Shown here: in pieces, positions 27,542-31,842 of the stretch
Numbering within the stretch: the first letter of the stretch is position 1
How the letters are laid out: the number at the start of each line of letters is the position of its first letter
Source: Desulfarculus baarsii DSM 2075
Lineage (GTDB): Bacteria > Desulfobacterota > Desulfarculia > Desulfarculales > Desulfarculaceae
Length of the DNA stretch: 64,000 nt
Assembly (NCBI RefSeq): GCF_000143965.1
Contig: NC_014365.1
Span: forward strand, 1,019,501 to 1,083,500
Direction: 5' to 3'
Notes under the pieces: model-generated
Seen by the model: only the letters and a program-made list of their open reading frames with translations
What the model was told of the DNA's origin: nothing
Databases searched by the model: none
Position numbers and translations under genes: made by a program

Positions 27542-28474
27542 ATGGAGCTTTGTTTTCTGGGCACCGGCGGGGCCTGGGGCCTGCCCGAACACGCCTGCCC
27601 CTGCGCCACCTGCCGGCGCATGCGCGCCCTGGGCCAGCATCGCGGCCGGGCCGGCCTCTGGCTGTCGACGGCCGCCGGCGGCGTGTTGATCGACCCCGGC
27701 CCGGATCTGCGGGCCCAGCTGATGGCCAACGACCTGCCCCGGCCCGACGCCGTGCTGATCAGCCACGAACACGGCGATCACTTCCTGGGCCTGGACGATC
27801 TGCTGTGCTTCCGGCGGGCGGTGGCCAAGGACCAGTGGCGGCCCATCCCCACCTACGCCAGCGAGGCGACCTGGGCCGCGGTCGAACAGCGCTTCGGCTA
27901 CCTGCTGCCCAGCCTGTTGGAAAAACGCCTCTGCCGGCCCGGCCAGGCCCTGGAGGGCGCGCCCATGGGCCCGGAACTGGCCTGCACGCCGATCAAGGTC
28001 GATCACGGGCCCTTTCCCAAGGGCGCGCTGGGCTTTGTCTTCGATTTGCGCCAGGACGGGCGCTCGCTACGCCTGGGCTACACCGGCGACATGCTGCGGC
28101 CCCAGGACGACCCCGACGCCTTTGCCGGCCTGGACGTGTTGGTCTGCCAGTGCGCCTTTCTCAACGAGCCGGCGGTCAACCTGGCCAATCACCTCAGCCT
28201 GCAGGCGGCCCTGCCCATGTTGCGACGTTGGACGCCGGGGCGGGTCTATTTTGTGCATTTCACTTGCCAGGACGTCACCCCCGGCGACCAGGCCGGCAAC
28301 GCCGCCATCAAGCGGCGCGCGCCGGCCCAGCCTCTTTGCCGGCCCGACGGCCAGCCCCACGCCATCCCCCAGGACCAAGAATCATGGCAGGCCACCATCA
28401 GCCAGGTTTTGGCCGAGGCCGGTTTGAGCTGCCAGGGCTTCGCCGCCTTTGACGGGCTGCGCGTGAGGTTGTGA
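27542..28474 (+). CDS. Metallo-beta-lactamase-fold hydrolase (PhnP/RNase Z-like)
   Basis: A 310-residue MBL-fold enzyme. The zinc motif HEHGDH in LISHEHGDHFLGLDDL and later metal ligands (VDHGPFPKGALGFVFDL, YTGDM) are intact, and the N-terminal CPCATCRRM motif resembles the structural cysteine site of PhnP-like phosphodiesterases. No phn genes are present, so a cyclic phosphodiesterase or pyrroloquinoline-type relative is only a guess. The ATG at 27542 follows GGAG; the ORF could be read from 27509 but with no ribosome site. Confidence 0.8.
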   Translation: MELCFLGTGGAWGLPEHACPCATCRRMRALGQHRGRAGLWLSTAAGGVLIDPGPDLRAQLMANDLPRPDAVLISHEHGDHFLGLDDLLCFRRAVAKDQWRPIPTYASEATWAAVEQRFGYLLPSLLEKRLCRPGQALEGAPMGPELACTPIKVDHGPFPKGALGFVFDLRQDGRSLRLGYTGDMLRPQDDPDAFAGLDVLVCQCAFLNEPAVNLANHLSLQAALPMLRRWTPGRVYFVHFTCQDVTPGDQAGNAAIKRRAPAQPLCRPDGQPHAIPQDQESWQATISQVLAEAGLSCQGFAAFDGLRVRL

Positions 28475-28484
28475 CCGGCCGCGC

Positions 28485-29045
28485 TCACGGTGCGGAGAGG
28501 GCCTGGCTGTCGTGGGAGTCGCTGCTGGTGGTGTCGTGGCGGTCGCTGGGACTGATGGTGGCCGCGCTCGCCTGGCCGGGGGCGTGGATTGTCCCGGATT
28601 GATCGCCGCTGGCGTTGAAGCTGCCCGTGATGGTCGAACCGCCCGCCGCGCCCACCGCGCCCACCAGCCTGACGGCGCTTTCGCCGGCCACATAGACGCC
28701 GGCCACCGTGCCGGCCACGCCAAAGGCCGTTTTCAACACATCCCAGCCGGGATGGTGATATTGCTGAATTTGGCTGCCTCCGCCGCCGTAAACCTCCATC
28801 TCACGGATGTTTTTCAGCTCGATTGACTTGTCGGGGTCGCTGGCCGTCAGGCGCAGAATGGGCCTGAGCGCCGCTTGCTGGGCCTGGACAAAGGCCGCCT
28901 CGTCGGTGAGTTCCTGGATGGTTTCGGTCACGGAGCCATCGGGGTGGGTGGTTTTGCTGGTGATGGTGCTTTTGCCCGCGCAACCCAGGCTCAGCAGGGC
29001 GGCCAAGGCCAAGGCGGCCCCGGCCGCGCGCTTGCCGACGGTCAT
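28485..29045 (-). CDS. Predicted lipoprotein of the lysis-like cassette
   Basis: A 186-residue protein with a hydrophobic leader (KRAAGAALALAALLSLGC) ending at a probable lipidated cysteine; the lipobox SLGC is imperfect. The middle (IQELTDEAAFVQAQQAAL) is helical, a Gly-rich hydrophobic stretch lies at about 105-140, and the tail is low-complexity Ser/Asp/His. I recognise no family. Its ATG overlaps the stop of the holin-like gene by TGATG, so the two are translationally coupled; position suggests a spanin-like or pore-associated envelope role. Confidence 0.6.
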   Translation of the reverse strand: MTVGKRAAGAALALAALLSLGCAGKSTITSKTTHPDGSVTETIQELTDEAAFVQAQQAALRPILRLTASDPDKSIELKNIREMEVYGGGGSQIQQYHHPGWDVLKTAFGVAGTVAGVYVAGESAVRLVGAVGAAGGSTITGSFNASGDQSGTIHAPGQASAATISPSDRHDTTSSDSHDSQALSAP

Positions 29046-29182
29046 CACAGGCCCTCCAACATCAGCGCCCACAGCCGCGCCAACGGCTCGGGGCAGGCGT
29101 AGCCCAGCGCGCCGGCCCCGGCGGCCAGGCCGGCGACGATGGCGGCGACGATTTTTTTGTGCTGTTTGATCCAAGCAAGCAT
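29045..29182 (-). CDS. Holin-like 45-residue membrane peptide
   Basis: A 45-codon gene: start MLAWIKQHKKIVAAIVAG, one Ala/Gly-rich membrane segment (about 11-28), then PEPLARLWALMLEGL. It has a strong AAAGGAG five bases before ATG 29182, overlapping the stop of the endolysin gene, and its own stop overlaps the next start. A positively charged N terminus, one membrane helix and this position between an endolysin and a lipoprotein suggest a holin or pinholin, but sequence alone cannot prove it. Confidence 0.6.
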   Translation of the reverse strand: MLAWIKQHKKIVAAIVAGLAAGAGALGYACPEPLARLWALMLEGL

Positions 29183-29193
29183 TTCGGCTCCTT

Positions 29194-29736
29194 TCATGTT
29201 TTTTGGCTAAAGGCCCACAACGCCGCGCAGCGTCTGGTCCAGCCGGTGATGAAGACGGCCTGATCGGGCTTGGCGGCCACGCGTTGGGCGTGGGCGGCCA
29301 TGCGTCGCCAGATCAGTGCGCCGGCCAGGACATGGGGGTTGGCGTGGGCCTTGGCTGAGGCGATGCTGCGCGGGCCGATCACGCCGTCGATGGCCACGCC
29401 CAGGGCCTCTTGCAGCCAGCGCGTCGGCCGGTCGGGGCCCAGGAGCACGGCCGAATCCATAAGCGTCACCGCCAGCGGCGCGGGCAGTTCCTCACCACCG
29501 ACCACCCGCCAGTAATGCCGATGATAGATGGCCAGGGCCTGGGCCAGGCTGGGCGGGCCAAAGCGCCAGGCCTCGGGATGATGGGCGCGGGCGATGCCCC
29601 AACGCGTGGGGCCGCCGCTGTCGGCTTGGTGCTGGCTGATGGTCGCCCAGCCTTCCTGAGCCAAGGTGAAGCCCACGGCCCACAAGAATCCTTGCTTGTA
29701 GCGCTGGGCGAACGGTTGCAGGCGCGAGTCGATCAC
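29194..29736 (-). CDS. Phage-type endolysin, glycoside hydrolase 108 / PG-binding-3 family
   Basis: A 180-residue enzyme resembling small GH108 muramidases. The N-terminal catalytic block has the probable acid Glu in FTLAQEGWATISQHQADSGG followed by PTRWGIAR, and the C-terminal PG-binding-3-like part includes LQEALGVAIDGVIGP. No signal peptide is seen, so release would need the holin-like peptide. The start is GTG 29736 because GGAGGG stands five bases upstream; longer readings from 29886 have no such site. No other phage genes are nearby. Confidence 0.8.
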   Translation of the reverse strand: MIDSRLQPFAQRYKQGFLWAVGFTLAQEGWATISQHQADSGGPTRWGIARAHHPEAWRFGPPSLAQALAIYHRHYWRVVGGEELPAPLAVTLMDSAVLLGPDRPTRWLQEALGVAIDGVIGPRSIASAKAHANPHVLAGALIWRRMAAHAQRVAAKPDQAVFITGWTRRCAALWAFSQKT

Positions 29737-29906
29737 TTTGTCCCTCCGGCGGCCTTGCCGCTGGGGCCAAGGATCGGCCGCCGCGCCGGGGCCGGCCAGG
29801 GAGCGGGCGCGCCAAACGGCCGCCGCCGTGGATGGGCAGGCAATGGTTGCCTTGGGCCGGCCAAGGCGACTACAATCGGGCTTCAACCCTAAGCTGGTTT
29901 TGGCAA

Positions 29907-30314
29907 ATGAATTATTCGCTGATCATCGCGCTGTGCGTGGCGGCCCTGGCCGTGGCGGTGGTGTTGTCGGGCTTTTCGGCGCTGGCCTGGTTCAAGTCGC
30001 GGGGCGCGGCCCAGCGAGCGGTGGAGTTGTTGCGCCTGGCCGACGAAAAGCACAAGGCGTCCCTGGAGATCTACGCCCAGGCGTCGTTGCGGGCCAGGGT
30101 GGCCCACGAGCTTTTATCGATGGGCCCGGTGTACGGGGCGCTGCTGGCCGGCGTGGCCGCCGACCCCGATGCGGCCCAACAGATCGCCGAACTGCTCGGG
30201 CAGATGCAAAAAAGCCAGATCGGCCCCGAAGTGGAGCGCATGGGTCAGTTGGACGCCCAGTACCTGAGCGAGTTGCAAGCCATGCTCAAATCCCTGGGCC
30301 TGAAAGACGCCTAG
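29907..30314 (+). CDS. Single-pass membrane protein with coiled coil, unknown
   Basis: A 135-residue protein with an N-terminal membrane helix (LIIALCVAALAVAVVLSGFSAL) and a long helical cytoplasmic part (about 35-135), with heptad-like AAQRAVELLRLADEKHKASL. I do not recognise a family. It diverges from the endolysin cassette with 170 bp between the starts. The SD site is poor. An 8-bp hairpin (30337-30356) follows the stop. Confidence 0.55.
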   Translation: MNYSLIIALCVAALAVAVVLSGFSALAWFKSRGAAQRAVELLRLADEKHKASLEIYAQASLRARVAHELLSMGPVYGALLAGVAADPDAAQQIAELLGQMQKSQIGPEVERMGQLDAQYLSELQAMLKSLGLKDA

Positions 30315-30345
30315 CGCGGCCCGGCCGGCGGCGGACGCTATTTTT

Positions 30346-30374
30346 TTGAAAATAGCCTGTTGTTGCGATAATAT
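30346..30374 (+). promoter_or_regulatory. Candidate sigma-70 promoter of ahcY
   Basis: TTGAAA (30346-30351) and TAATAT (30369-30374) are 17 bp apart. The predicted leader is about 30 bases, with AGGAG before the ATG. No room or signature for an SAH riboswitch was found. Confidence 0.45.
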
Positions 30375-30411
30375 CTAACGATTGACAACAGCCCTCAACA
30401 GGAGACGAAAA

Positions 30412-31842
30412 ATGAACGCCGAGGCCGCGCGCAAGGGCGAAGCCCCGTTGGCATACAAGGTCAAGGACATCGCTTTGGCCGATTGGGGCCGCAAGGAAAT
30501 CGAGATCGCCGAACAAGAGATGCCCGGCCTCATGGCCACCCGCGAGAAATATGGCCCACAAAAACCGCTGGCCGGCGCGCGGATCAGCGGCAGCCTGCAC
30601 ATGACCATCCAGACGGCGGTGCTCATCGAGACACTGGTGGCTCTGGGCGCCGATGTGCGCTGGGCCTCGTGCAATATCTTCTCGACCCAGGATCACGCCG
30701 CCGCGGCCATCGCCGCCGCCGGCGTGCCGGTTTTCGCCTGGAAGGGCGAGACGCTCGAGGAATACTGGTGGTGCACCATGCAGGCCCTGACCTGGCCCGA
30801 CGGCCAGGGGCCCAACCTGGTCGTCGACGACGGCGGCGACGCCACGTTGTTGATCCACAAGGGTTACTACGCCGAGAAAAATCCGGCCCTGCTCGATGAG
30901 CCCACCGACGACAAAGAATTGAAGTGCGTCATCGACGTCCTGCGCCGGATGCAGGCCCAAAATCCCCGCCACTGGCACGGAGTGGTGGCCGATTGGAAGG
31001 GCGTCTCCGAGGAGACCACCACCGGCGTGCATCGGCTCTATCACATGGCCGAACAAAACCAACTGCTGGTGCCGGCCATCAACGTCAACGACTCGGTGAC
31101 CAAGAGCAAGTTCGACAATATCTACGGCTGCCGCGAATCGCTGGTCGACGGCATCAAGCGGGCCACCGACGTGATGGTCGCCGGCAAGCAGGCGTTGGTC
31201 TGCGGCTACGGCGACGTGGGCAAGGGCTCGGCTGAATCACTGGCCGCCCACAAGGCCCGCGTCTCGGTGACCGAGATCGACCCCATCTGCGCCCTGCAGG
31301 CCCTGATGGCCGGCTTCCGCGTGATCACCGTCGAGGACGCCTTGCCCTTCGCCGACATCTACGTCACCGCCACCGGCAACCGCGACATCATCACCGCCGA
31401 GCACATGGCCGGCATGAAAGACCAGGCTATCGTCTGCAATATCGGCCACTTCGACAACGAGATCCAGGTCGATCGCCTCAACGCCTGGCCCGGCGTCAAA
31501 AAGATCAATATCAAGCCCCAGGTCGACAAATACGTCTTTGCCGACGGCCATTGCATCTATCTGTTGGCCGAGGGCCGTCTGGTCAATCTGGGTTGCGCCA
31601 CCGGCCACCCCAGCTTCGTGATGAGCAACAGCTTCACCAACCAGACCCTGGCCCAGATCGACCTGTGGCAAAATCGGCGCGCGGTGGGCGTCTACACCCT
31701 CTCCAAGCAACTCGACGAGGAAGTGGCCCGTCTGCACCTGGGCAAGCTGGGGGCCAGGCTGACCAAGCTCAGCCCCGAACAAGCCGCCTACATCGGCGTG
31801 GGCGTCGACGGCCCCTTCAAAAGCGAGTTTTATCGCTACTAA
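30412..31842 (+). CDS. ahcY: Adenosylhomocysteinase
   Basis: A 476-residue enzyme that hydrolyses S-adenosylhomocysteine to adenosine and homocysteine, removing the inhibitor of methyltransferases. The NAD-binding motif [12 protein letters not shown], substrate residues in [20 protein letters not shown] and EEYWWCT, and the C-terminal YRY (KSEFYRY) are all present; full length for the bacterial long form. It converges on metK, the other half of the methyl cycle, with two terminators between. Confidence 0.97.

Follow-up and report, generated by a model that had tools for sequence, protein, structure and literature searches.

The DNA analysed (the window; 64,000 nucleotides, C1:1019501-1083500) is part of the genome of Desulfarculus baarsii DSM 2075, which consists of a single contig of 3,655,731 bases. 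It contains a cassette of three intact genes on the reverse strand, of which the position (28485-29736) and orientation had been given correctly by a sequence-only reading. The features of the cassette and of its divergent neighbour are, in window coordinates:

29741..29747, reverse strand: likely ribosome-binding site of the endolysin gene (GGAGGGA), from the sequence
29194..29736, reverse strand: endolysin, a GH108 and PG_binding_3 muramidase (180 amino acids, GTG start)
29188..29194, reverse strand: likely ribosome-binding site of the peptide gene (AAAGGAG), from the sequence
29045..29182, reverse strand: peptide of 45 amino acids with one hydrophobic segment, holin-like by its place
28485..29045, reverse strand: lipoprotein of 186 amino acids, of a lysis-cassette family without a name
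29907..30314, forward strand: P0004, the divergent neighbour, with an N-terminal membrane segment and a helical part (by eye)

An endolysin, a small membrane protein, and an envelope lipoprotein are thus adjacent on one strand, which is the make-up of a phage lysis cassette. The good ribosome-binding sites noticed before were found again in front of the endolysin and peptide genes. Coupling by stop/start overlap, as claimed for the whole cassette, applies to the peptide and lipoprotein genes (TGATG) but not to the endolysin and 45-amino-acid peptide genes, which are 11 bp apart; an alternative peptide start at 29197 gives 50 amino acids and overlaps the endolysin stop.

The assignment of the endolysin as a GH108 muramidase is based on two Pfam models, both matched above their curated cut-offs, namely Glyco_hydro_108 (PF05838; E=1.7e-16, 60.9 bits versus a cut-off of 21.2) and PG_binding_3 (PF09374; E=9.2e-11, 42.2 bits versus 24.6). 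In addition, it matched PHROG 315, annotated as endolysin (E=4.4e-32), and scored far under the cut-off of the NCBIfam holin-associated muramidase model (27.3 of 240 bits). Neither a signal peptide nor a SAR segment was read in it by eye. Among solved structures, it matched 6v3z_A (Sen1395) and 6v40_A, which we take to be TtsA, with E-values of 7-8e-5. The active-site loop residues Glu28, Asp39, and Thr44 were kept. Residue Gln35 aligns with Asp19 of TtsA, which has been named as part of a triad (PMC6996933), and a prophage copy in the same genome (described below) as well as the outgroup copies of genomes G028 and G032 have Asp there. Among solved homologues, Asp occupies this position in 7dnp and 6v40, and Asn in NMB1012 and Sen1395. 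Gln35, which at first seemed a lost catalytic residue, may or may not be one, as Sen1395 has Asn there and its catalytic domain is able to replace that of TtsA (PMC6996933).

The peptide has its hydropathy peak at residues 11-29. No significant family was found for it, and the sole holin hint from families was a weak match with PHROG 4712 (E=0.015); its place in the cassette suggests that it may be holin-like. The lipoprotein, far longer than o-spanins, carries a lipoprotein signal with the cysteine at residue 22 after ...LSLG, and no further cysteine occurs in the mature protein. Near residues 103-121 lies a weakly hydrophobic stretch rich in glycine (KD hydropathy of 1.1-1.6 over 19 residues in five members of its family), after which about 65 residues remain, the last of them mostly hydrophilic. 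The lipoprotein had no significant Pfam or NCBIfam model, and four family members, including the window and prophage copies, had no significant PHROG match. Its fold was predicted poorly (pLDDT 38.6, pTM 0.19, five alignment rows).

A second cassette, with the same three families in the same order and orientation, was found at C1:1744803-1746018, 0.7 Mb from the window copy. Indeed, the genome contains two PF05838 loci above cut-off and two lipoprotein loci, which pair up. The second cassette is located where a Mu-like prophage ends with its tail fibre region; genes for tail fibre and tail assembly precede it and a papain-like gene follows it (by eye), whereas the window copy lacks both the tail assembly and the papain-like neighbours. 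Also unlike the prophage copy, the window copy has its own ribosome-binding site before the endolysin gene. The Mu-like contractile-tail prophage lies at C1:1744224-1782800 (L003, L005, L052; calls by a home-made gene caller). PHROG matches were obtained for its portal (5e-97), tail sheath (2e-88), transposase (1e-84), baseplate wedge (1e-77), and major head protein (2e-30), and not for its cassette peptide and lipoprotein. A terminase above cut-off lies at 1766028, and Mu-type early genes resembling those of GemA, Gam, and MuB were recognised by eye. The prophage also carries type III-like restriction-modification cargo (by eye).

Between the two copies, amino acid identity is 74-76% for the endolysin, 77% for the peptide (versus a gene of 44 amino acids in the same place), and 45-46% for the lipoprotein. 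At the DNA level, the copies are 78.6% identical over 690 bp, from the peptide end to the endolysin start and hence across two genes, and a further similar piece of 59 bp lies within the lipoprotein gene. The copies differ too much to stem from a recent duplication, and a related phage offers the simpler origin; the window cassette would accordingly come from a relative of the resident Mu-like prophage and not from a recent copy of it. The proposal of a phage lysis module was borne out by the Pfam and PHROG matches of the endolysin and by this homologous cassette. Within a single genome, an apparently host-owned lysis operon can thus be linked to its phage counterpart, and its isolation in the window is therefore not evidence of domestication. 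During lysis, the small peptide would open the inner membrane, upon which the signal-less GH108 muramidase would reach and cut the peptidoglycan. The lipoprotein would act last, at the outer membrane and in place of a spanin, a role suggested by its position after the genes for the endolysin and the small membrane protein and by the lack of a recognised spanin pair in the cassette.

Other phage regions were encountered in the genome. A second contractile-tail phage region (C1:1999300-2049700; L073-L075) contains a sheath gene (PF04984), a terminase gene, and an M15-like endolysin gene, the last by eye. PF04984 found this sheath at 2.01 Mb and missed the Mu-like one, recognised by PHROG 23, which makes counts based on one family minimum values. 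Furthermore, two small similar elements (near C1:1928500-1939000, L070-L071, and C1:2480700-2491900, L077-L078) carry genes of integrase, portal/capsid, and terminase type, and both adjoin the same transposase-like gene of 329 amino acids (mostly by eye). These terminase-bearing elements are possible phage satellites, and no lysis gene was recognised in them by eye. A tailocin or gene transfer agent elsewhere in the genome had been proposed as a user of the window cassette; contractile-tail regions indeed exist, the Mu-like prophage with its own lysis module and the second region with an M15-like endolysin, and a putative tie of either to the cassette has no support.

In the direction of the cassette, P0004 lies upstream, followed by ahcY and metK, and a convergent gene coding for an MBL-fold protein lies downstream. 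Of the seven neighbours scanned, ahcY, metK, and the DivIVA domain and DUF167 genes matched housekeeping models above cut-off, the NUDIX and MBL genes matched below cut-off, and P0004 had no match in that scan. None was recognised as a cargo gene, and no dedicated regulator was recognised near the cassette. A crude scan, which misses other promoter types, found no sigma-70-like promoter facing the cassette; two such sites, at 29847 and 30346, are directed towards P0004 and ahcY. A set of 129 proteins predicted in four regions of the genome, each a prophage or prophage-like, was compared with the whole window (E<=1e-3; proteins of at least 30 residues were used), and only the Mu-like endolysin and lipoprotein gave matches, both within the cassette. 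When the search was restricted to 27901-31000 and the low-complexity filter switched off (E<=0.05), the peptide was matched as well (E=4e-8). Six weak matches also appeared (E 0.003-0.012); they lie in the MBL gene, ahcY, or the endolysin gene and were read as chance. The earlier statement that no phage genes are nearby was hence confirmed as measured with the prophage proteins of the same genome, a yardstick that unlike phage genes among the 73 called window genes could escape. In particular, no genes for phage structure, packaging, or integration were found next to the lysis genes, and no prophage genes just outside the cassette boundaries. At the cassette edges, terminal repeats, a target duplication, and other phage remnants were not found, and only short GC-rich matches occurred.

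The cassette probably belonged to a Mu-like transposable phage, of which only this lysis module remains, stranded in the chromosome. We infer that the flanking phage genes were lost, with just these three being spared, as no remnant, terminal repeat, or target duplication was found at the edges. Alternatively, recombination could have brought in the cassette, with no prophage ever present at this place. An argument against a stranded module is that no close phage relative was found among 50,697 phage records, in which the endolysin matched 201 records, every one less than 60% identical, and the lipoprotein none (E<=0.01). Similarly, IMG/VR scans with the endolysin and with lipoprotein subset A2 confirmed no relative; as the phage record and IMG/VR scans are seeded by short patterns that must match exactly, near records may have escaped them, and this absence is weak evidence.

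Among 20 genomes of the family, including one of the genus, GH108 matches (E<=1e-5) occurred at seven loci in six genomes. Phage-type genes, among them those for tail or baseplate, adjoin six of these loci (by eye except for the resident prophage), the window copy being the only isolated one. This speaks against a host autolysin operon that was later picked up by phages, a scenario for which the occurrence of the lipoprotein as an orphan chromosomal gene in sister species can be cited and which we consider highly improbable, the endolysin being found elsewhere in the 20 family genomes only beside phage genes. Synteny in relatives, a check proposed with the initial observation, gave no sign of the cassette at this place. 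Close ahcY genes (E<1e-200) were found at eight loci besides the own one, in seven genomes, and ahcY and the MBL match are on different contigs in all seven relatives that have both. In the 16 flank loci fetched from relatives, neither the cassette (E<=1e-4) nor P0004 was found, and genome G024 has the genes from ahcY to tsaD in window order without the cassette. The cassette thus marks a synteny break seen, among the 20 family genomes, only in its own genome.

P0004 is likewise present in only one of the 20 family genomes, its own, and is possibly part of the same strain-specific block. Together with its absence from the flank loci, its N-terminal membrane segment, and its helical remainder (by eye), this could fit a small strain-specific insertion of about 28475-30314 in which P0004 is an inner-membrane spanin-like partner. 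This combined reading seems improbable, as P0004 is on the opposite strand with its own promoter-like site, had no match in the 50,697 phage records, had no counterpart seen in the gene list of the resident prophage, and had LapA_dom as its best weak match (E=7e-4, below cut-off).

A long-standing stranded relic would be expected to show clear decay, and the frames and conserved residues of the window copy do not, which weighs against the stranded-module reading. The pairwise dN/dS between window and prophage copies is 0.33 for the endolysin, 0.35 for the peptide, and 0.64 for the lipoprotein. For the endolysin, conserved sites were counted with different outgroups. At 64 sites on which G028 and G032 agree and which at least one of the two copies retains, 58 are kept by both copies, three by the window copy only, and three by the prophage copy only; with G017 added (35 sites), these counts are 33, two, and zero. 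Corresponding counts are 37, two, and one for G032 with G017, 75, seven, and 11 for G028 alone, and 82, seven, and 14 for G032 alone, so that with single outgroups more losses fall in the window endolysin (11 versus 7 and 14 versus 7). For the lipoprotein, the window copy alone keeps 18 sites and the prophage copy alone 11 with two outgroups, versus six and six with three. As far as these comparisons go, the window copy shows no clear faster decay and seems to have kept its frames and conserved residues about as well as the prophage copy. Its divergence may have taken place while it was still in a phage, and the cassette may still encode working proteins.

These data also bear on the suggestion, made in the sequence-only reading, of a domesticated lysis or release system, in which the cassette would be retained to serve the host in programmed lysis, in forming vesicles, or in releasing proteins by type 10 secretion. 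Intact frames, good ribosome-binding sites, the endolysin and peptide dN/dS values, and window endolysin losses that equal those of the prophage (three each) or, with G017, fall below them (zero versus two) are in line with it, and the literature offers precedents in type 10 secretion systems (PMC13284979, PMC6996933) and the DLP12 lysis module (PMC7918800). However, the pairwise dN/dS cannot separate time in a phage from time stranded, the lipoprotein value is higher, and the single-outgroup counts lean towards more window endolysin losses. Moreover, the cassette occurs at this place in one genome only, and neither a facing sigma-70-like promoter nor, among the seven neighbours, a cargo gene was recognised. 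Support stops at the intact genes, and domestication appears unlikely compared with the stranding of a phage module.

The lipoprotein belongs to a family (11 members aligned) with at least 16 loci, 12 of them in seven of 60 genomes of the class and at least four more from a phylum search. The latter gave at least seven matches in at least six of 395 genomes, three of them already among the 12 class loci, and scored at most nine candidates per genome, making it a lower bound. Judged by their neighbours, mostly by eye, nine of the 16 loci are phage loci, two are less sure (L026 and L065), four are orphans, and one is the window locus. The phage lipoproteins come after unlike endolysins, namely of GH108, of a transglycosylase type (PHROG 669, E=5e-24), and of a PHROG 873 type (E=8e-28). 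The orphans occur at two places, each common to two genomes of one genus, with neighbours read by eye:

L021, 1954-2451: orphan lipoprotein beside cytidylate-kinase-like and his genes
L023, 9213-9716: orphan lipoprotein beside cytidylate-kinase-like and his genes
L027, 5932-6486: orphan lipoprotein beside lipA/engB/topA-like genes
L029, 7423-7977: orphan lipoprotein beside lipA/engB/topA-like genes

The L021 contig also has a transposase-like fragment at 8-307. The dN/dS is 0.19 for the L021/L023 pair (0.14 and 0.04 for two neighbour genes) and 0.85 for the L027/L029 pair (0.23 and 0.24), so the former pair looks constrained and the latter does not; evidence of selection on orphan lipoproteins in the sister species therefore appears mixed. 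A literature search, in which the nameless lipoprotein was not itself a search subject, found no published account of the cassette or the lipoprotein; for prophages of D. baarsii, it listed a single paper, which concerns SpoVG. As a speculative extension, which we consider unlikely, the lipoprotein could be a lysis (or phage-exclusion) factor that acts at the outer membrane as one piece and has gone unrecognised in phages of this bacterial family, partnering unrelated endolysins and repeatedly retained by hosts, alone or with the whole cassette. The family offers a concrete candidate for the unassigned outer-membrane lysis step in this group, and its orphan chromosomal copies make host retention testable.

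Compared with known systems, the cassette resembles the lysis set of phage Mu, which comprises the SAR endolysin gp22, the releasin gp25, and the spanins gp23/gp23.1 (PMC9239132), in that the endolysin of a transposable phage is accompanied by a small membrane protein and by a lipoprotein of the outer membrane. It differs from it in that the endolysin is of GH108, with no SAR segment by eye, and no i-spanin was recognised. Like unimolecular spanins of the T1 gp11 type, the lipoprotein comes last in the cassette and has a lipobox and no further mature cysteine. The published definition of that class needs a C-terminal TMD (PMC6139136), whereas the lipoprotein combines its lipobox-like signal with a hydrophobic stretch that is weak and internal. 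Type 10 secretion systems, which include TtsA, ChiWXYZ, ChiH/ChiP, and a Yersinia system (PMC13284979, PMC6996933), differ from the window cassette, which has no cargo gene or dedicated regulator recognised nearby and is not found at this place in relatives; a cargo gene might be located elsewhere in the genome. The window nevertheless holds an isolated hydrolase gene alongside a putative holin gene, and, as in type 10 secretion, a phage-derived putative holin and peptidoglycan hydrolase occur outside a phage. By analogy with such systems (PMC13284979) or with the DLP12 module (PMC7918800), domestication is possible.
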